A DNA stretch of 22,570 nucleotides from a virus: positions 1-22,570 of the IMG/VR virus record IMGVR_UViG_3300010371_001388; one strand, 5' to 3'. The notes below the pieces were generated by a model. The model worked only from the letters and a program-made list of their open reading frames with translations. It was not told the DNA's origin and made no database searches. The translations under genes and the position numbers were made by a program. Of the stretch, positions 28 to 18,466 are shown piece by piece (positions within the stretch are counted from its first letter, which is position 1; every line of letters begins with the position of its first letter).

Positions 28-170
28 CACAAAAAGTGGCTCATTTTAGCCTCCAATAAGTAAAAGACCTGCCTTGTAAAGGTTTTATTACGTTCAAATT
101 ACCAAGCGGTTCTTGTAATTCGGAAAGGCAGCTATTGTCGCGCTGTTTTAGATGTTTTTATGAAATTAAT

Positions 171-201
171 TTTGAGACCTATAAAATTTTTCTTATCTTT
201 G
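171..201 (+). promoter_or_regulatory. Bacteroidota-type promoter of the terminase genes
   Basis: TTTG at 171-174, a 19-base spacer and TATCTTTG at 194-201 match the -33 TTTG and -7 TAnnTTTG elements used by the primary sigma factor of Bacteroidota. The expected start of transcription lies a few bases downstream, at the edge of the palindrome at 212-225. This is the best promoter match in the window and probably starts the packaging/tail operon. Confidence 0.7.
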
Positions 202-9776: not shown

Positions 9777-9796
9777 TATATGCCAATAGGCATATA
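9777..9796. repeat. Palindrome TATATGCCAATAGGCATATA, copy 2 of 3
   Basis: Two 8-base arms around AATA, 10 bases after the terminator and about 20 bases before the tape measure start. The 23 bases 9780-9802 are identical to 12831-12853. It also forms a tiny reading frame, Met-Pro-Ile-Gly-Ile-stop. Its place between a terminator and a gene start suggests a regulatory site. Confidence 0.7.
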
Positions 9797-9815
9797 AAAC
9801 ATATTAATATTTATT

Positions 9816-12062: not shown

Positions 12063-12077
12063 GTTCCTGGTATAAAC

Positions 12078-12100
12078 TGAGACAACACACATCTGTCTCA
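12078..12100. repeat. Inverted repeat TGAGACA-N9-TGTCTCA
   Basis: Seven-base arms at 12078-12084 and 12094-12100, between the tape measure stop and the small gene at 12124. No T run follows, so an operator is more likely than a terminator. The arms resemble a widened form of the TGACA/TGTCA half-sites in the array at 12455-12825. Confidence 0.55.
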
Positions 12101-12123
12101 CGCAAACTTAACTAACTCATATC

Positions 12124-12360
12124 ATGAATATCAAATTGGCTAATACCCTCTTTGACGAGGGAATATTTTCGTCATTGTATAAGGCCGGCTTTATCACGGT
12201 TAAAGTATTCGTTTACCGCGAGATCTATCTTTGGGTTCAGGCGCAGATTAAAACGCGTGGCATCACCAAGAATCAAGCAGTATTGGAAGCCGAAGTCAAA
12301 TTTATGAAAGACGAGCGGACCATTTGGCGAGCATTGAACAGTTTTGATGATGGACAATGA
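12124..12360 (+). CDS. Small possible DNA-binding protein
   Basis: A 78-residue protein, mostly helical by eye. Residues about 45-73 (RGITKNQAVLEAEVKFMKDE then RTIWRALNSF) look like a helix-turn-helix: a helix starting at the Thr after Gly-Ile, a turn, then a recognition helix with TIWRAL, comparable to the 'TIYRAL' pattern of many small regulators. An aromatic REIYLWVQAQIKTRG segment precedes it. This assignment is by pattern only. The gene stands between an inverted repeat upstream and the iteron and tandem-repeat hub directly downstream, which fits a protein that acts on those sites, but no direct evidence links them. Start: ATG at 12124 after an A-rich leader. Alternative: a small virion or chaperone protein after the tape measure. 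Confidence 0.6.
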   Translation: MNIKLANTLFDEGIFSSLYKAGFITVKVFVYREIYLWVQAQIKTRGITKNQAVLEAEVKFMKDERTIWRALNSFDDGQ

Positions 12361-12362
12361 AA

Positions 12363-12450
12363 CCCTTCAAGCTCTTAAGCGAGTTTATTTAAGCTCATAA
12401 CGAACTTAATTTGAGCTGCAAACGTGAATAATGTGAGCTTTATTTCGATT
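12363..12450. repeat. Four 22-base AGCT-centred iterons
   Basis: AGCT begins at 12370, 12392, 12414 and 12436, exactly 22 bases apart. The surrounding bases are also partly shared: an A/T-rich left arm such as TAATTTG or TTATTTA and a CG dinucleotide six or seven bases to the right of each AGCT. Taken as 22-mers the units are 12363-12384, 12385-12406, 12407-12428 and 12429-12450. Two helical turns per unit would put a bound protein on one face of the DNA. They start three bases after the stop of the small gene and end five bases before the tandem array. Confidence 0.7.
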
Positions 12451-12454
12451 CTAT

Positions 12455-12825
12455 AATACTGACAAAACACTGTCACCATTTGACAAAAAGATTATCCCGA
12501 CCTTTGAAATATAACGATCAGTGAAATCTTCCGCCAATCGGTGCAATCACAAACAATACTGACAAAACACTGTCACCATTTGACAAAGAGATTATCCCGA
12601 CCTTTGATTATACCAATCGGTGAAATCATCCGCTAATCGGGGCAATCACAAACAATACTGACAAAACACTGTCACCATTTGACAAAGAGATTATCCCGAC
12701 CTTTGATTATACCAATCGGCGAAATCATCCGCTAATCGGTGAAATCCCAAACAGTACTGACAAAACACTGTCACCATCTAACAAAAACATTATCCCGACC
12801 TTTGAATAAACCGATCCATAGAATT
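12455..12825. repeat. Tandem array of four ~99-base repeats
   Basis: Units begin at 12455, 12555, 12654 and 12753 (periods 100, 99, 99); the fourth decays after about 12815. Each unit opens with ACTGACAAAACACTGTCACC, giving TGACA-N6-TGTCA, and in units 1-3 a third TGACA five bases later; in unit 4 this is TAACA. Next come TTATCCCGACCTTTGA, whose GACCTTTG is one base from the TAnnTTTG box, and in units 1-3 two GTGAAATC-like boxes 20 bases apart. Units 2 and 3 are almost identical; 1 and 4 are diverged. No reading frame runs through it convincingly. Confidence 0.85.
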
Positions 12826-12830
12826 TAATT

Positions 12831-12844
12831 ATGCCAATAGGCAT
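12831..12844. repeat. Palindrome ATGCCAATAGGCAT, copy 3 of 3
   Basis: Five-base arms ATGCC/GGCAT around AATA, just after the fourth tandem repeat. The identity with the copy at 9780 extends to 23 bases (12831-12853). It lies about 110 bases before the head-module start codon and again reads Met-Pro-Ile-Gly-Ile-stop. Confidence 0.7.
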
Positions 12845-12895
12845 ATAAAACATTGCCATAACTGACCAATAATTACCATCATCTGGTACTAAATT

Positions 12896-12932
12896 AATCG
12901 GTGAAATCACATTGTTAAATCGATGAAATCAC
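12896..12932. repeat. GTGAAATC doublet ahead of the protease gene
   Basis: AATCGGTGAAATCAC at 12896-12910 and AATCGATGAAATCAC at 12918-12932, 22 bases apart, 20 bases before the protease start. The same box type occurs in the tandem array and ahead of the portal, tail fibre and last gene. Confidence 0.7.
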
Positions 12933-12951
12933 AAAATAATTTCAAATCTAA

Positions 12952-14148
12952 ATGAGCTACAAAATCTATTTATACGATACCGACACCGACTGCATAGGTT
13001 CCGGCACCTTATCATCGTCTTATATACAAGGGCAGCTCCAGGCTGCTGCCGGCCAGGATGTGGAAGTTCATATCAGTTCTGTAGGGGGCAGCGCCTTTGA
13101 CGCTATTGCCATATACGATCTGTTTAAGAAATATTCAGGCAGCGTAACCACTTATATCGATGCCCTTGCCGCCTCCGCAGCTTCGATAGTTGCAATGGGT
13201 GGTAAAACGGTGGTCATGAGTAAATATGCGTTGCTCATGATCCATAAGCCAATGGTAGGCACGGGCGGCAATGCAGATGAACTGCTAAAAGATGTGCAAA
13301 TGTTAAATATTGTCCAGTCGCGCCTTGCGCAGATATACATGGACAAAACCGGGTTGGACGGAGTTACCGTTAATAGTTTGATCAACTCCGTCACCTGGTT
13401 GTCTGCCGATCAGGCGCTTAGTCTCGGTTTTATCGACCAGGTCGATGACTACAGCGCAACGATAACAAACACCGCCCTGATTAAAAATTATGTAAGTACA
13501 GCGCCAATATTTTATCAACGGTACATTAATAAAATCTTAACCAATAAAAGCAACATGAACATCGAAAACAAAGAGCTTATCGAAAAAACCACGACGGTTT
13601 TGGATAAGATTATGAACTTCTTCAAAAAAGTAGTCAACAAGCAAACCATCACCGACAAGGGCATTTTACACCACGCCGGGGAGTTAACCGAAGGCGCCGA
13701 AGTTTACAACGACGACGACATGAGCGAACCTGCCGCCGCCGATTGCTATACCACCGCAAGCGGCAGTAAAGTTGCAGTTCAGAGCGGCAAGGTCCAAAAA
13801 ATTACACCTCCGCAGGATGCCGACCCGGCTGCGGATAGCGATGATACAGGGGAAGCTTCAAGTATCCTCAAGTCGCCAAAAAAACCGTCGGACATTCAAA
13901 ATAAGCTGCAATCTGTAAAGGCGAAATTGCACGCGCAGAATGCGTTGTTAAATGAGGCTAAGGAAGCATTGGAAGAAGCAAACATCCGTCTGAAAAAAAC
14001 ACGCGAAGAGGTAAAGAACGAAATCCATTCAAACTTTACTCCGGAAGGTTCTAAGCGCAGCAATAAAGCAAAAACCGAGGCTGCCCCTTTCTTCGCGCCG
14101 CAAACTACCCTCGCGCAAAACGCCGTCAGAAAAGCGGTTGCTAAATAA
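12952..14148 (+). CDS. ClpP-type prohead protease fused to a scaffold domain
   Basis: A 398-residue head maturation protein. Residues 1-166 are a ClpP-like (S14) protease: ISSVGGSAFDAIAIYDLF at 41-58, then DALAASAAS with nucleophile Ser75, LLMIHKP with His98 and WLSADQALSLGFID at 149-162. By alignment with ClpP the third catalytic residue would fall near Ser146-Val147, and no acid is there; phage relatives usually show an acidic ETWL at this point. Residues 200-398 are a scaffold-like tail: Asp-rich and Lys-rich spacer, a coiled coil around 302-345 (NKLQSVKAKLHAQNALLNEA) and a basic end. The protease would cleave the scaffold during capsid maturation, and the capsid gene follows 43 bases later. 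An internal ATG-started scaffold from 13555 is possible but not proven. Confidence 0.82.
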   Translation: MSYKIYLYDTDTDCIGSGTLSSSYIQGQLQAAAGQDVEVHISSVGGSAFDAIAIYDLFKKYSGSVTTYIDALAASAASIVAMGGKTVVMSKYALLMIHKPMVGTGGNADELLKDVQMLNIVQSRLAQIYMDKTGLDGVTVNSLINSVTWLSADQALSLGFIDQVDDYSATITNTALIKNYVSTAPIFYQRYINKILTNKSNMNIENKELIEKTTTVLDKIMNFFKKVVNKQTITDKGILHHAGELTEGAEVYNDDDMSEPAAADCYTTASGSKVAVQSGKVQKITPPQDADPAADSDDTGEASSILKSPKKPSDIQNKLQSVKAKLHAQNALLNEAKEALEEANIRLKKTREEVKNEIHSNFTPEGSKRSNKAKTEAAPFFAPQTTLAQNAVRKAVAK

Positions 14149-14191: not shown

Positions 14192-15400
14192 ATGGCTCAA
14201 TTTACATTTACAAACAACACTTATGCCGGCGAAGCACTGGCGGGGTTTATGGCCAGCACGCTTTTGGAAGCCGATTCTGTTAAGCGCGGATTGCTGACCG
14301 TTATCAACGACGTTAAATCACGAAAAGTTATACTGGACGTTGACGACGATGTGGTTCTGCAGGATCCTTCAGGCATATTTACCGATCAGGGGACCACAGC
14401 CCTGCAAAATGAAAGTTACCTCGATCCCGTGGTATACGAATTTATGAAACAGGAACAATGGGATAAGCTCATCCAGTCGTGGGAAGCGCAAAGTCTTAAA
14501 CCCGGTGCTTTCGTTGATTACGAAGGAGTAGTGGATCTGTCCGACTTTATGGTACAGCGTTACCTTACAAAAATACAGATCGCAAATGAGCGGTTATACT
14601 GGCTTGGCAAAGCTTCAACCAAAGAGGCGACTTTTACTGCGGCTTTCCCGGGTTTGCTGCCAGCTATAGCAACCGCGTCAGGGGTTTACAAAGTTGGTCT
14701 CGGCAAACCTGCTACCTCGATGTCGGCAACGGCAATTGATGCAACAGGGTCTGTAACTGTTTCTGATACCTCAACTTTAGCCGACGGCGATGTTGTAACC
14801 ATCACTGCTATTACCGGCACTAGCAAGGATACCACAAACGGAACGCCGGGTATCTCAATCCAGGGGCAATCCTATTTTATCCAGGTAACAAGCGCCACAA
14901 CTTTTAAACTGGTGCGCAACTACAACGAGGTAAACAGCCGTAAGCCAGCCACTTTTGCCAACACATCCACCGCCGCAATCATCAGCTACATCAACGTAAG
15001 CAATGTGTTGCAGGTTTTGGGCAGCGTGTATGCCCAGCTTGACCCGGCCGACCGTATCCAGGACGACTTTAACCTGCAGGTTCCATTACATGTGGGCTAC
15101 GCGTTCGCGCAAGCCCAGGCAAATAAGGCGTTGAACGTCATCAACGCGTTTACGGATATGAAAAAGATGGATTACCTCGGTATCCCTTTGCAGATCATGA
15201 ATCACTGGCAGGCCAACACCATTTTAGGCGCACGTTCTTCCAACCTGTTTTTGGGTGTGGACCTGTTAGGCGATGCTTCAGAGCTGTCTACCGTATACAT
15301 GAAGCCTTACACCAACGATAACGTAGTGCGCATGAAGGCGCGCATGAAAGCTGCGGTAAACTACAAATTTGCAAACGAAATATTTTACCTGTCGGCCTAA
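14192..15400 (+). CDS. Major capsid protein
   Basis: A 402-residue shell protein in the usual place after the protease. It begins with AQFTFTNNTYAGEALAGFMA and contains LDVDDDVVLQDPSGIF, EFMKQEQWDKLIQSWEAQ and a C-terminal half with PLHVGYAFAQAQANKALNVI and a closing VNYKFANEIFYLSA. Between about residues 180 and 265 lies a beta-rich stretch with GSVTVSDTSTLADGDVVTIT, GQSYFIQVTSATTFKLV: the pattern 'DGDVVTIT...TG...NG..F.V....TTF.L' matches the small FCCH/Ig-like domain often inserted in phage structural proteins. It is flanked by capsid-like sequence and probably forms a surface protrusion. No sign of frameshift. An HK97-type fold is likely but is not shown by any short motif. Confidence 0.75.
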   Translation: MAQFTFTNNTYAGEALAGFMASTLLEADSVKRGLLTVINDVKSRKVILDVDDDVVLQDPSGIFTDQGTTALQNESYLDPVVYEFMKQEQWDKLIQSWEAQSLKPGAFVDYEGVVDLSDFMVQRYLTKIQIANERLYWLGKASTKEATFTAAFPGLLPAIATASGVYKVGLGKPATSMSATAIDATGSVTVSDTSTLADGDVVTITAITGTSKDTTNGTPGISIQGQSYFIQVTSATTFKLVRNYNEVNSRKPATFANTSTAAIISYINVSNVLQVLGSVYAQLDPADRIQDDFNLQVPLHVGYAFAQAQANKALNVINAFTDMKKMDYLGIPLQIMNHWQANTILGARSSNLFLGVDLLGDASELSTVYMKPYTNDNVVRMKARMKAAVNYKFANEIFYLSA

Positions 15401-15439
15401 CCATCGTAGGGTCAAACAGACATTATAAACCTGCTACCT

Positions 15440-15477
15440 AAAGTCTCCCCTGCCGGGGGAGATTTAGAGGGGGCTTT
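15440..15477. repeat. TCTCCCC/GGGGAGA hairpin element, copy A
   Basis: AAAGTCTCCCC, loop TGCC, then GGGGGAGATTTAGAGGGGGC TTT. TCTCCCC pairs with GGGGAGA, and the outer AAAG can pair with CTTT in an alternative fold. It lies between the capsid gene and the next start. Copies B and C flank the portal end. I recall similar elements scattered in Sphingobacteriaceae genomes. Confidence 0.8.
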
Positions 15478-15489
15478 AATCAACTAATT

Positions 15490-16080
15490 ATGTCAATTTA
15501 CAATAAAATAAACGCGGGGTTCAGTTTGGGAACTGATGCGCCAGTCACAGCCGGTATCGAAGACGTTATTTACATCTTCAACCAGGATGATATTACCCTT
15601 ACTTACGATACAACCAATCCGCTTATTGTCACCGGTTTAACTTCGGTAAGTAGCGGTAAGATTTACAAATTCTACGGTACCAACAATAGCTTCAATACCA
15701 TATCGAAGCTGGCTAAAACTTCTGTAGGACCGCGGTATACCGAAGAAATAGACTTTAATGTCGCTGGTTTATCAGTAGATGTAAAAACACAATTAATGGC
15801 AATGGGCTATGGCCGGGTATGTGCCATATCGGTAAACAACTACAACAGCAGCGATTCGGCGATAGAGTTGTTCGGCGCCGTAAACGGATTGATTCTTACC
15901 GATGCCGAACGGAGCGCCGCTGATGAAACCCTGGATGGCGGCTACAAATTAAAATTGACGAATCCCGACAAACTAAGGGAGCCGTATCCGCCGCGTGCAG
16001 TTTCTATCGCCCCAACCAGCGGCCCTGCCACTTATGCCAGTACAATCGCCGCTGTCGAAGCGCTGGTTGCAACATCTTAA
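15490..16080 (+). CDS. Virion structural protein (possibly tail tube)
   Basis: A 196-residue, largely beta protein: MSIYNKINAGFSLGTDAPVT, GLTSVSSGKIYKFYGT, a TSVGPRYTEEIDFNVAGLSV strand pair, then LMAMGYGRVCAISVNNYN and IELFGAVNGLILTDAERSAA before a Pro-rich end. The order 'EI/V-D-F... L..M..GR..AI..NN......E..G...GL' resembles small structural proteins next to the capsid gene in Bacteroidota prophages. Tail tube, tube-like connector or decoration protein are all possible; position in the head block favours a head-side role and the size favours the tube. The hairpin element stands directly ahead, and the next gene starts five bases after the stop. Confidence 0.5.
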   Translation: MSIYNKINAGFSLGTDAPVTAGIEDVIYIFNQDDITLTYDTTNPLIVTGLTSVSSGKIYKFYGTNNSFNTISKLAKTSVGPRYTEEIDFNVAGLSVDVKTQLMAMGYGRVCAISVNNYNSSDSAIELFGAVNGLILTDAERSAADETLDGGYKLKLTNPDKLREPYPPRAVSIAPTSGPATYASTIAAVEALVATS

Positions 16081-16085
16081 CCACA

Positions 16086-16307
16086 ATGAAAAAGAAATAC
16101 ATTTTAAAACCTGGCCGGCACCAATTTGCGCCAGGTTCCCCGGCGGTTCATACCAATGATAATGTAAGCGACAAAGAGGTAGAATGGTACCTTGAAAACT
16201 ATCCTCACATAGCAGCTTTGATTGAAAAAAACGGGGCAGAAGTTGACCAGGAGCTCGAATCGGAACGGGCAGCCACAGAATCAATCAGCGAAGTCAACAA
16301 CGAATAA
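16086..16307 (+). CDS. Small conserved phage protein
   Basis: A 73-residue protein with a compact front half: MKKKYILKPGRHQFAPGSPA, then VHTNDNVSDKEVEWYLENYP and HIAALIEKNG, and an acidic, disordered tail. I recall the 'KPG.HQF.PGS.a.H.NdN' phrase in small genes beside capsid and portal genes in this phylum; no function is known to me. Start codon five bases after the previous stop, so very likely translated with it. A head-tail joining or capsid-binding role is a guess from position only. Confidence 0.6.
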   Translation: MKKKYILKPGRHQFAPGSPAVHTNDNVSDKEVEWYLENYPHIAALIEKNGAEVDQELESERAATESISEVNNE

Positions 16308-16325
16308 ATCAATAAATAAACAAAC

Positions 16326-16372
16326 AATCGGTGAAATCATCCCGGTAACTATCGGGACCAATCGGTGAAATC
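16326..16372. repeat. GTGAAATC pair flanking a hairpin ahead of the portal gene
   Basis: AATCGGTGAAATCA at 16326-16339 and CAATCGGTGAAATCG ending at 16373, with TCCCG-N8-CGGGA (16340-16357) between them. The nearest perfect form of that hairpin, TCCCGATAG/CTATCGGGA, is a repeat I recall from Sphingobacteriaceae. The second box ends six bases before the portal start. Confidence 0.7.
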
Positions 16373-16378
16373 GAAAAC

Positions 16379-17674
16379 ATGAAGACCTACTTACCACAAA
16401 TTGAGCGGAGGATATTTGTACGCCCAAATCAAACATTCGGCATACTTAATTACGACCTGGATAACGCTTATCCGCAACGCATGCTCGAGTTGGTGGCTAG
16501 CTCCCCGACAGCAAAGGACTGTTGGTCAAAAAGAGGGAAATTTATTGCGGGTAATGGGTTTGAGGAACCGGAATTGGGTAAACAAATTGTTAATCAAAAA
16601 GGCCTCACATTGGCTAAGTTGCTGAAGGCTGTGGCGATTGATAAAGCGCTGTTTACAGGGTTTGGTATTCACGTAAATTATAATGCCAATTTTAAGATCA
16701 CATCGGTTAATTATGTAAAGTTTGAGGATATCCGGATGGGCGATACCGACAGTCCCGAAACGAACGGTAAATACGCGCTCTATTCCGACTGGGGTCGGAA
16801 AACCTGGAAAAACATTATGCGAAGCAAGATCACCTTCCTTGATAAATACGATCCCAACCCTCAAATTATCGAAAGCCAGGTTATTGCAGCGGGTGGGTGG
16901 AACCAATATAAGGGACAGCTTTTTTACTTCAATCCGGAAGTAGATGATTATCCCCTGATCGAAGCCGACAGCGTTTGGGAAGATTTTGAAACCGAAGCTG
17001 GGATAAAGATCTTCAATAACCGCGAAGTTACCACTGGTTTTTTACCCTCGACGATGCTGTTTATGCAATCCAGGAGGGAAGAGGCCGATAACAGCCGCCC
17101 GGATGAGGAACGTCCTTATGGTAATATGCCGTCTCAGTTGGAAAAAGACTTAGGGGCATTTCAGGGTGCCAAAAGTGCCCAAAAGATTATCGTCATTGAA
17201 TATGAAGATGAAACTTCCAAACCCGAATTTCAGCCGTATTCTATTCAAAATAATGACAAGCTGTTCGAGACAACCGAAAAATCGGTAGAGGCGAGGATTA
17301 TCAAAGGCTTTTCGGTTCCGAAAGAGCTTATTAATTCTGAAAACTCGTCCGGGTTGAGTAACGGCGGAGAAAAAAAGGAGGCCATCCGCGAATTCAATGA
17401 CAATACCGCGCCCGACAGGTTGGAGCTGTCCGAAACGTTTGCCGAAATATTCAGCCATTATTGTTTGGATATCAACCCGGCCGGCAACTGGAATATAGTA
17501 CCCGTTCCCGCAAACGTAGCCGACGATGTAACCGGCATCAAAGCCGGTGCCAGCATCAACCAGTTGCTTTTAGCCGATTTATCTGCCGAAACAAAAATAG
17601 CCACACTGGTTTATGCCTACGGTTTTAAACGATCCGAAGCTGAAGCGATGTGCGGTACGGTTAACCAACAATAA
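16379..17674 (+). CDS. Portal protein
   Basis: A 431-residue protein predicted to form the ring through which DNA enters the head. It starts MKTYLPQIERRIFVRPNQTF, has a conserved early YDLDNAYPQRMLELVASSPT and CWSKRGKFIAGNGF, a middle beta/alpha region with KFEDIRMGD, and an ending with FSVPKELINSENSSGLSNGG and REFNDNTAPDRLELSETFAE, the latter two matching the helical stem region of portal proteins I know from Bacteroidota. Assignment is by these patterns, size and place between capsid and connector. Its last 21 residues (LVYAYGFKRSEAEAMCGTVN) have a diverged second copy downstream in the same frame, separated by a repeat element whose first bases supply the stop codon. The portal lies after the capsid gene, the reverse of the common order. 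Confidence 0.7.
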   Translation: MKTYLPQIERRIFVRPNQTFGILNYDLDNAYPQRMLELVASSPTAKDCWSKRGKFIAGNGFEEPELGKQIVNQKGLTLAKLLKAVAIDKALFTGFGIHVNYNANFKITSVNYVKFEDIRMGDTDSPETNGKYALYSDWGRKTWKNIMRSKITFLDKYDPNPQIIESQVIAAGGWNQYKGQLFYFNPEVDDYPLIEADSVWEDFETEAGIKIFNNREVTTGFLPSTMLFMQSRREEADNSRPDEERPYGNMPSQLEKDLGAFQGAKSAQKIIVIEYEDETSKPEFQPYSIQNNDKLFETTEKSVEARIIKGFSVPKELINSENSSGLSNGGEKKEAIREFNDNTAPDRLELSETFAEIFSHYCLDINPAGNWNIVPVPANVADDVTGIKAGASINQLLLADLSAETKIATLVYAYGFKRSEAEAMCGTVNQQ

Positions 17675-17708
17675 AAGTCTCCCCTACAGGGGAGATTTAG
17701 AGGGGGCC
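17674..17708. repeat. TCTCCCC/GGGGAGA hairpin element, copy B
   Basis: AAAGTCTCCCC, loop TACA, GGGGAGATTTAGAGGGGGCC. The last base of the portal stop codon is the first base of the element, so the element edge TAAAAG provides the stop. The element itself has no stop in the portal frame. Confidence 0.8.
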
Positions 17709-17770
17709 TGTTGGTTTTTGCCTACGGCTTTAAACAGGCCGAAGCGCAGGCTATGTGCAGTACTAAATAA
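17708..17770 (+). pseudogene. Second, diverged copy of the portal C-terminus
   Basis: In the portal frame these bases read LLVFAYGFKQAEAQAMCSTK then stop, against LVYAYGFKRSEAEAMCGTVN at the real end of the portal. By my alignment 42 of 53 bases agree. There is no start codon nearby, and only 11 codons (the hairpin element) lie between the portal stop and this copy. It is best seen as a remnant, either of an older portal end or of recombination with a related phage. Readthrough of the portal stop would add it as a 32-residue extension. Confidence 0.65.
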
Positions 17771-17794
17771 CGTTTTATTTTTTTACTAAAACTA

Positions 17795-17832
17795 AAAGTC
17801 TCCCCAACCGGGGGAGATTTAGAGGGGGCTTT
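17795..17832. repeat. TCTCCCC/GGGGAGA hairpin element, copy C
   Basis: AAAGTCTCCCC, loop AACC, then GGGGGAGATTTAGAGGGGGC TTT, identical to copy A outside the loop. It ends one base before the start codon of the connector gene, so a hairpin here would cover the translation initiation region. Confidence 0.8.
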
Positions 17833-17833
17833 T

Positions 17834-18466
17834 ATGAACACCATTTATTTAATCAACCAAACTACGTTTCAAAGCTATGAGGATATCTCGGTTAATGTGA
17901 AACCCGGGCGCCTGAATGTTTTTATAAAAAAAGCGCAGGACTTGGATATTAAGCCCTTTTTGGGTCATGCTTTGTATTACGATTTTATGCAGAATTTCAA
18001 TTCTGATGGAACAATTCAGGATACTGCACCGCAGCCATATAAGGATCTGTTGAACGGCAGCGAATACCTCGACAATTATGGCCATATCGTATTATATGAG
18101 GGCTTGTTGCCTGCATTGGTCTACTTCACGTTCGCCAGGTTCATTGAAGCCGATGCGGTACATTACACCGCTACCGGCCCGGTGGTAAAACACCATGATA
18201 ACGGCGACCCGGTTGCTCCGAAGGATATTGTAAAACTGGTTCAGCAGCAGCGCAGCGTGGCCAATGCTCACGCTAACGAGGTCGAAAAATTTCTTTGGGA
18301 CAACAAACAGGACTTTCCGCTTTGGCAATACAGTGGGAAAAATAAAAGCAGCAGGCAAGCCGGGCCGCGCATAAGAAGCATCGACCGCACAAACTTCAAT
18401 TATCCATCAGGTTACGGGCCTATCGGTCCGGATGGGTACCTGCCCATTACCGAATTCATGAATTAA
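17834..18466 (+). CDS. Head-tail connector protein
   Basis: A 210-residue, mainly helical protein that probably docks under the portal. It begins MNTIYLINQTTFQSYEDISV, followed by NVFIKKAQDLDIKPFLGHALY and ALVYFTFARFIEADAVHYTA, then a long helix KDIVKLVQQQRSVANAHANE and an aromatic FLWDNKQDFPLWQYSG near the end. The 'A.....IKPFLG...YY' phrase and the later 'YL..N...FP.W' are what I associate with the connector family next to Bacteroidota portal genes (DUF6712-type); the name is from memory. Start ATG lies one base after hairpin element C. The protein's last part, SGYGPIGPDGYLPITEF, is Gly/Pro-rich and probably flexible. Confidence 0.65.
   Translation: MNTIYLINQTTFQSYEDISVNVKPGRLNVFIKKAQDLDIKPFLGHALYYDFMQNFNSDGTIQDTAPQPYKDLLNGSEYLDNYGHIVLYEGLLPALVYFTFARFIEADAVHYTATGPVVKHHDNGDPVAPKDIVKLVQQQRSVANAHANEVEKFLWDNKQDFPLWQYSGKNKSSRQAGPRIRSIDRTNFNYPSGYGPIGPDGYLPITEFMN

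Follow-up and report, generated by a model that had tools for sequence, protein, structure and literature searches.

Tandem copies of a putative activator-dependent promoter before the head operon of a phage-derived cluster inherited in Mucilaginibacter

We found that a repeat array in the window, which is an entire IMG/VR record of 22,570 bases, is probably a fourfold tandem repeat of one activator-dependent promoter serving the head operon of a phage-like cluster, with ORF78, a small protein encoded just upstream, as the activator. The first-pass annotation had read the array as a multiplied operator-promoter unit before the head module, a proposal that is strongly supported by a genus-wide layout, an invariant 23-nt spacing and covariation with the candidate activator. 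Judged from sequence comparison, the core of the finding is not the composite of motifs but a promoter that appears to be conserved, repeatedly multiplied and activator-dependent, the probable activator being picked out by covariation. The setting is other than the one first supposed: the cluster is a chromosomally fixed, inherited element, and a free phage is not evident.

In the mechanism that we propose, RNA polymerase with the housekeeping sigma factor would be unable to use the array promoters alone. ORF78 would bind the dyad of each unit, probably as a dimer, and recruit polymerase; transcription would then start from each unit, and the head genes would be turned on after transcription of the first operon. 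With several such promoters in a row, output would be higher or the response sharper, and the graded or cooperative late switch suggested by the first-pass annotation is plausible. Phage activators that replace the -35 contact are already known. Promoters multiplied in series and kept throughout a genus with lineage-specific copy number were not found in the literature searched.

The array in the window

The array comprises four units between 12455 and 12851, starting at 12455, 12555, 12654 and 12753, and Tandem Repeats Finder placed it at 12455-12816 with a period of 99, 3.6 copies and 92% matches. These results and the positions of the motifs (Table 1) agree with the earlier description of four copies of a unit of about 99 bases, each with a TGACA-N6-TGTCA palindrome (TGACAAAACACTGTCA). 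The palindrome starts correspond to unit steps of 100, 99 and 99, and the palindrome at zero mismatches occurs nowhere else in the window. The half of the unit that carries the promoter is the better conserved, with 48-54 of 54 positions identical between units; unit 4 lacks the second half of the repeat. Units 2 and 3 are 96% identical, suggesting that part of the array is young.

Two other elements assigned to the composite unit by the first-pass annotation fared less well. The third TGACA is present in units 1-3, with TAACA in unit 4, as described, but it was rejected as a functional part of the switch, as it occurs in 3 of 221 distinct units, all of them from this window. The paired GTGAAATC boxes of units 1-3 do lie 20 bases apart, but each unit holds only one exact copy, accompanied by a copy with 1-2 changes (the pairs are GTGAAATC/GTGCAATC, GTGAAATC/GGGCAATC and GCGAAATC/GTGAAATC). 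These boxes are an ordinary dispersed host repeat: in each of eight Mucilaginibacter genomes, 1-46 exact copies of AATCGGTGAAATCA were counted, often paired about 20 nt apart, against 0-1 copies of the reversed pattern. They were therefore rejected as part of the composite unit and of the switch. Repeats of the form AGTCTCCCC...GGGGGC, found between the head genes at 15440-15484, 17673-17717 and 17795-17839, are probably dispersed host repeats too.

Table 1. Features of the array and its surroundings (window coordinates; transcription starts are predicted)
Feature	Position	Strand	Remark
Putative promoter before terminase genes, ordinary -33/-7 type	170..201	+	TTTTG-N19-TATCTTTG; from sequence; unlike array promoters
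ORF78, 78-aa helix-turn-helix protein, proposed activator of array promoters	12124..12360	+	conserved upstream of array; predicted HTH; covariation
Putative operator dyad, unit 1 (TGACAAAACACTGTCA)	12460..12475	+	predicted -51 to -36
Putative -7 box GACCTTTG, unit 1	12499..12506	+	start near 12511; 23-nt spacing conserved
GTGAAATC-type boxes within units 1-3	12521..12746	+	dispersed host repeat, no part of promoter
Putative operator dyad, unit 2	12560..12575	+	
Putative -7 box GACCTTTG, unit 2	12599..12606	+	start near 12611
Putative operator dyad, unit 3	12659..12674	+	
Putative -7 box GACCTTTG, unit 3	12698..12705	+	start near 12710
Putative operator dyad, unit 4	12758..12773	+	
Putative -7 box GACCTTTG, unit 4	12797..12804	+	start near 12809
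Head maturation (Clp-type) protease, putatively the first array-driven gene	12952..14148	+	PHROG 94 E 1.2e-54; Pfam CLP_protease
Head operon downstream	14192..18466	+	probable capsid 14192-15400; 15490-16080; portal 16379-17674; DUF6712 17834-18466

One promoter layout across the genus

Upstream of the head-protease gene, 260 units of one architecture were detected in 116 Mucilaginibacter or IMG/VR loci, against 0.01 units in shuffles. The shared layout is tACTGACAAA-mnAs-TGTCAsCAy and, with a gap between dyad and box of exactly 23 nt, CCGAymTTTG. The middle of the dyad is short and variable; the flank that follows TGTCA is C or G, then CA, then C or T; and the box, GA(T/C)(A/C)TTTG, is preceded by CC and has G as its first base in 98% of cases. 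When the gap between dyad and box was left free at 8-44 nt, it was 23 nt in 220 of 232 cases. The exact 16-mer TGACAAAACACTGTCA was found in 44 IMG/VR stretches, many of which share a contig with relatives of the head protease. Among the genome loci that bear the protease, 49 came from Mucilaginibacter or from MAGs labelled only Bacteroidetes, and one further, distant match came from Peptoniphilus. Almost all of the regions upstream of the protease carry 1-5 units of the one layout. Counted over the 104 loci with at least 800 nt upstream, two units were present in 49, three in 33, four in nine, one in four and none in nine, so that at least one unit was found in 95 and at least two in 91. Moreover, most of the loci scored as unit-less have altered operators in the same 23-nt geometry (TGCCA-N6-TGGCA in M. 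roseus and its relatives, TGTCA-N6-CGCCA in M. polytrichastri and TGACA-N6-CGCCA in others).

The unit step varies by lineage from 77 to 212 nt (181 in M. rigui, 159 in M. terrigena, 177 in M. pineti and 99 in the window), and one M. terrigena genome (G147) has at least 22 nearly identical units of 159 bp, split over two contigs (C3 and C13; L172). That both copy number and period differ between lineages suggests that the promoters have been multiplied repeatedly, and the lineage-specific arrays amount to a natural experiment on the effect of promoter number. In many loci the units of one array are strongly diverged except in operator, flank and box. Chance or a neutral satellite expansion of intergenic DNA, devoid of function, could produce an array that is young in part, in a window that also holds dispersed host repeats, but not readily a genus-wide pattern in which diverged units keep just these three elements. 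This architecture largely refutes neutrality, although the exact copy number could still be neutral, and we regard the probability of a functionless array as practically nil.

Another class of explanation is that the repeats act in RNA or DNA processing, as a terminator or antitermination array, an origin, a packaging site or a recombination site. There is a precedent in the Caulobacter gene transfer agent (GTA) cluster, which has three 150-bp direct repeats that terminate transcription (PMC11150451). Against this, the sole terminator-like match in 12063-12960 falls inside ORF78 and not in the array, for which reason a terminator was rejected; no Rfam family was matched; and the free variation of period and copy number around a fixed operator-box spacing fits promoters better. 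A processing role is thus highly improbable, and the origin or recombination hot spot considered by the first-pass annotation gets no support. A comparison of the array region with GenBank phage records gave nothing beyond chance pieces, and a literature search on the palindrome, or on Mucilaginibacter together with GTA or prophage, gave nothing on point.

The reading of the units as promoters takes its positions from Flavobacterium psychrophilum, in which TAnnTTTG, the box of sigma-A promoters, occupies -12 to -5 (PMC9723704). By this measure transcription would start at the four positions given in Table 1, and the dyad would cover -51 to -36. The array box, CCGAymTTTG, is best described as a variant of the Bacteroidota -7 box, to judge by its sequence. 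It has the TTTG core in common with the -7 element (TAnnTTTG) of Bacteroidota housekeeping promoters, but differs from it in reading GAnnTTTG and in being preceded by CC, and the operator with its flank stands where these promoters have a -33 TTTG. Indeed, 210 of 221 units had no TTG near -33, and the array units do not show the combination of -33 TTTG and -7 TAnnTTTG that defines sigma-A promoters in Bacteroidota.

The dyad overlaps the -33 region, which would suit a repressor as well as an activator, and nearly all genomes have a regulator-like gene of the S24-peptidase type close to the cluster. The dyad could then be a repressor operator that silences the head promoters, as a lock on late genes. 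We consider this very unlikely, because only 11 of 221 units have a TTG that could serve transcription free of an activator, whereas the promoter predicted before the terminase genes of the window is of the textbook type. The S24 gene is, moreover, a general host gene, present in 134 of 150 genomes whether or not they carry the cluster, and was rejected as a dedicated cluster regulator.

The layout of the units recalls the phage Mu promoter Pm, which has a start-proximal box and no -35, and at which Mor binds a dyad at -51 to -36, centred on -43.5 (PMC4287176). With starts predicted from PMC9723704, the sequence of the array units would fit this scheme: the dyad is predicted at the identical position, the box is present, there is no -35-type element, and the candidate activator, like Mor and the C of the late promoters, is small and has a (predicted) HTH. 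The two systems are thus alike in layout but not by descent. Pm is single and the Mucilaginibacter promoter, with its Bacteroidota TTTG-type box, occurs in series of 2 to more than 20; furthermore, Mor and ORF78 have no sequence similarity and no significant structural similarity.

A stem or palindrome, TATGCCAAnnGGCATA, was also observed at 211-234, 9779-9802 and 12830-12853 of the window and at many loci. In related loci, 33 sites have its first base 11 nt past the start of the -7 box, that is, at the predicted transcription start. Possibly, it is a 5' RNA hairpin or a second operator.

ORF78 as the candidate activator

The gene for ORF78 lies directly upstream of the array, where it closes the block of tail genes, and its end is separated from the first dyad by about 100 nt. 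Of 150 genomes of the genus, 84 have ORF78, and most of these also have the capsid gene. AlphaFold2 predicted five helices with a C-terminal HTH (helices 49-60 and 64-73) at a mean pLDDT of 95.6, the recognition helix starting at residue 64. ORF78 matched no Pfam family, had no credible sequence relative in the PDB and gave only a weak match to PHROG 26001, of unknown function. A fold search against the PDB returned nothing at E 0.001, and the best match in BFVD was a 'Homeodomain-like domain containing protein' of an uncultured phage (TM 0.85, 32% identity). Membership in the Mor/C family was rejected for want of sequence or fold similarity: with 29 members of the ORF78 family searched against Pfam, no match to it appeared at E up to 1, and Mor (1rr7) reached only E 6.2 and TMq 0.29 in the PDB fold search. 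The P2 Ogr late activators have a cysteine zinc finger and a TGT-N12-ACA site near -55. The ORF78 of the window has no cysteine, none is conserved in the alignment and the operator is different, so that this family was rejected as well. In four genomes we noticed distant relatives of ORF78 (34-42%; G035, G036, G062 and G093), which in G036 and G062 have a distant portal gene about 4-5 kb away; these probably represent the wider phage family that the element came from.

ORF78 changes along with altered operators. Residue 50, in the first HTH helix, is N, H or Y with C at operator base 17 in 79 of 80 sets, and R, K or S with G at this base in 16 of 17; the exceptions are L054 (R50 with C17) and L357 (N50 with G17). 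Residue 64 is K in all three sets that have G at operator base 18. As a control for shared ancestry, all columns of ORF78 and of the Clp head protease (about 470) were ranked against the operator bases, and residue 50 came first for position 17 and residue 64 first for position 18. On a tree built from Clp only, residue 50 and base 17 each change seven times; four of five supported independent pairs agree and none is opposite, with a median p of 0.125 for these few pairs. For residue 64 and base 18, about three of four independent pairs agree, again with none opposite (median p 0.25). In both comparisons the pairs are too few for p to fall to 0.05. In one genome (G066) the operator flank CACGAA led us to expect K64 beforehand, and K64 was then found. 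A third covariation, of residue 63 with operator position 3, is limited to one clade and equalled in score by Clp columns, and is at most consistent with a contact. The specificity of ORF78 is testable with a few point mutants, since operator bases can be matched one by one with the residues that seem to read them.

Autoregulation of ORF78 was rejected, as no operator was found before its gene in any of 122 loci. The likely order of expression would thus be the terminase-tail operon, with ORF78 at its end, and then the head operon.

Several genomes also have scattered host sites with the layout of the array promoters, and these bear on the question of which protein binds the dyad. The promoters could be multiplied as we propose but have a dyad bound by a host regulator of the CRP/FNR or OmpR/PhoB kind, ORF78 doing something else. 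The half-sites of TGACA-N6-TGTCA are spaced as in CRP sites, and a Pho-box-like reading of ACTGACAAA..TGTCACCA, as an 11-bp direct repeat, is possible as well. Moreover, two genomes (G024 and G095) have similar host sites, many of them with a 22-nt spacing, in the absence of a detected ORF78 or capsid, suggesting that another protein may use such sites. Other genomes speak for ORF78: the 11 scattered sites of G066 all lack the canonical C at position 18, in keeping with its own K64 protein, and G006 and G099, in which most scattered sites have G at position 17, possess a second, diverged ORF78 (58-61%) elsewhere in the genome with S at residue 50. Against a host regulator stands also that two ORF78 residues, at places where an HTH would be expected to contact DNA, follow the operator bases more closely than all other columns of ORF78 and Clp. 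PhoB was rejected, the motif being absent from the pst loci of G006 and G034 and a clear PstC being found in only two of eight genomes. A host regulator at the dyad is therefore unlikely; our preferred candidate remains ORF78, which could be aided or replaced by a host factor.

Two features of the host sites were noted in passing. In G006 and G099 (loci L181-L202 and L259-L282) host promoters of the array layout have the form TGTCAGCACTTATCCC...CCGAAATTTG, and several are followed by a GNRA-like hairpin and a boxA-like stretch, GTTCTTTGAA, as in antitermination leaders. In G014, two paralogous genes of 362-368 aa and unknown function (C1:1811934 and C2:382985; L256 and L261) have one unit each, 18 nt before the ATG, with the same operator core as the G014 array.

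An inherited phage-derived cluster

In the window, genes for terminase and tail, including a tape-measure-like protein, precede ORF78, the array and the Clp-type head protease, which is followed by the probable capsid, portal, DUF6712, tail fibre and lysozyme. Its position and strong conservation mark the gene at 14192-15400 as the probable major capsid gene. Among the 20 genes of the window, of which several are without a known family, none for integration or replication was recognised, the ends of the cluster being provisional.

The capsid gene was found in 76 of 150 genomes of the genus, nearly always once, about half of the genus being without it. A comparison of 75 kb in five species showed the cluster flanked by the same host genes throughout, with an RRM protein and others on one side, among them an Omp85-type protein in four of the five, and a YCF48-like gene on the other. 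Host neighbours from the same set were found in 17 of 18 further genomes; the eighteenth, G124, has no S24 gene anywhere and no such neighbour in the stretch examined. Capsid and host S24 gene share a contig in 61 genomes and are 7-33 kb apart in 57 of these. Distances between RpoB proteins are correlated with those between TerL proteins (Mantel r 0.57, p 0.0002), and the two trees share 6 of 17 splits, against 0.18 expected by chance. Portal relatives of at least 71% were found, among 301 genomes of the family, only in those already drawn from the genus, the others reaching 33-38%. Capsid dN/dS was 0.02-0.07 where it could be estimated, with synonymous sites near saturation, indicating long-term purifying selection on the structural genes. 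We conclude from these comparisons that the cluster appears to be a phage-derived chromosomal element, vertically inherited under selection and roughly following the host tree, and not a passing virus.

Single copy, fixed host locus, vertical inheritance and purifying selection together form a GTA-type pattern, found here in Bacteroidota and in culturable soil bacteria, and the cluster possibly resembles a GTA. We put forward tentatively that it may be a genus-wide, vertically inherited Mucilaginibacter GTA, whose head operon would be run by an array of near-identical promoters and a private family of ORF78 activators, with the same activator on scattered host genes in some species and an array length tuned by lineage from 2 to more than 20. 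To our knowledge, such a GTA would be the first in Bacteroidota.

The GTAs of Caulobacter (GafYZ) and Rhodobacter (GafA) offer a parallel, each being a domesticated chromosomal phage cluster with a dedicated direct activator; particle production is established for these two, whereas the Mucilaginibacter cluster is known from its genes. The available part of PMC11150451 describes about 18 other promoters of Caulobacter GafY besides that of the GTA, which resemble the scattered sites in some Mucilaginibacter genomes. According to the same part, GafY acts with IHF from a site at about -123 to -113 and GafZ acts by antitermination; promoter arrays are not described there for GafYZ, unlike the situation in Mucilaginibacter. 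Very few GTA-like elements outside Alphaproteobacteria are known (PMC12946183). The Faecalibacterium FpGTA treated there is, as here, a candidate of this kind, but belongs to another phylum, is podovirus-like and has no array-type promoters described in the available part of that paper.

Two clusters are in decay. That of Mucilaginibacter sp. L196 (G006, L223) has lost most genes between terminase and ORF78, and that of Mucilaginibacter sp. MD40 (G004, L215-L216) has lost capsid to tail fibre and keeps ORF78, two promoter units and Clp.
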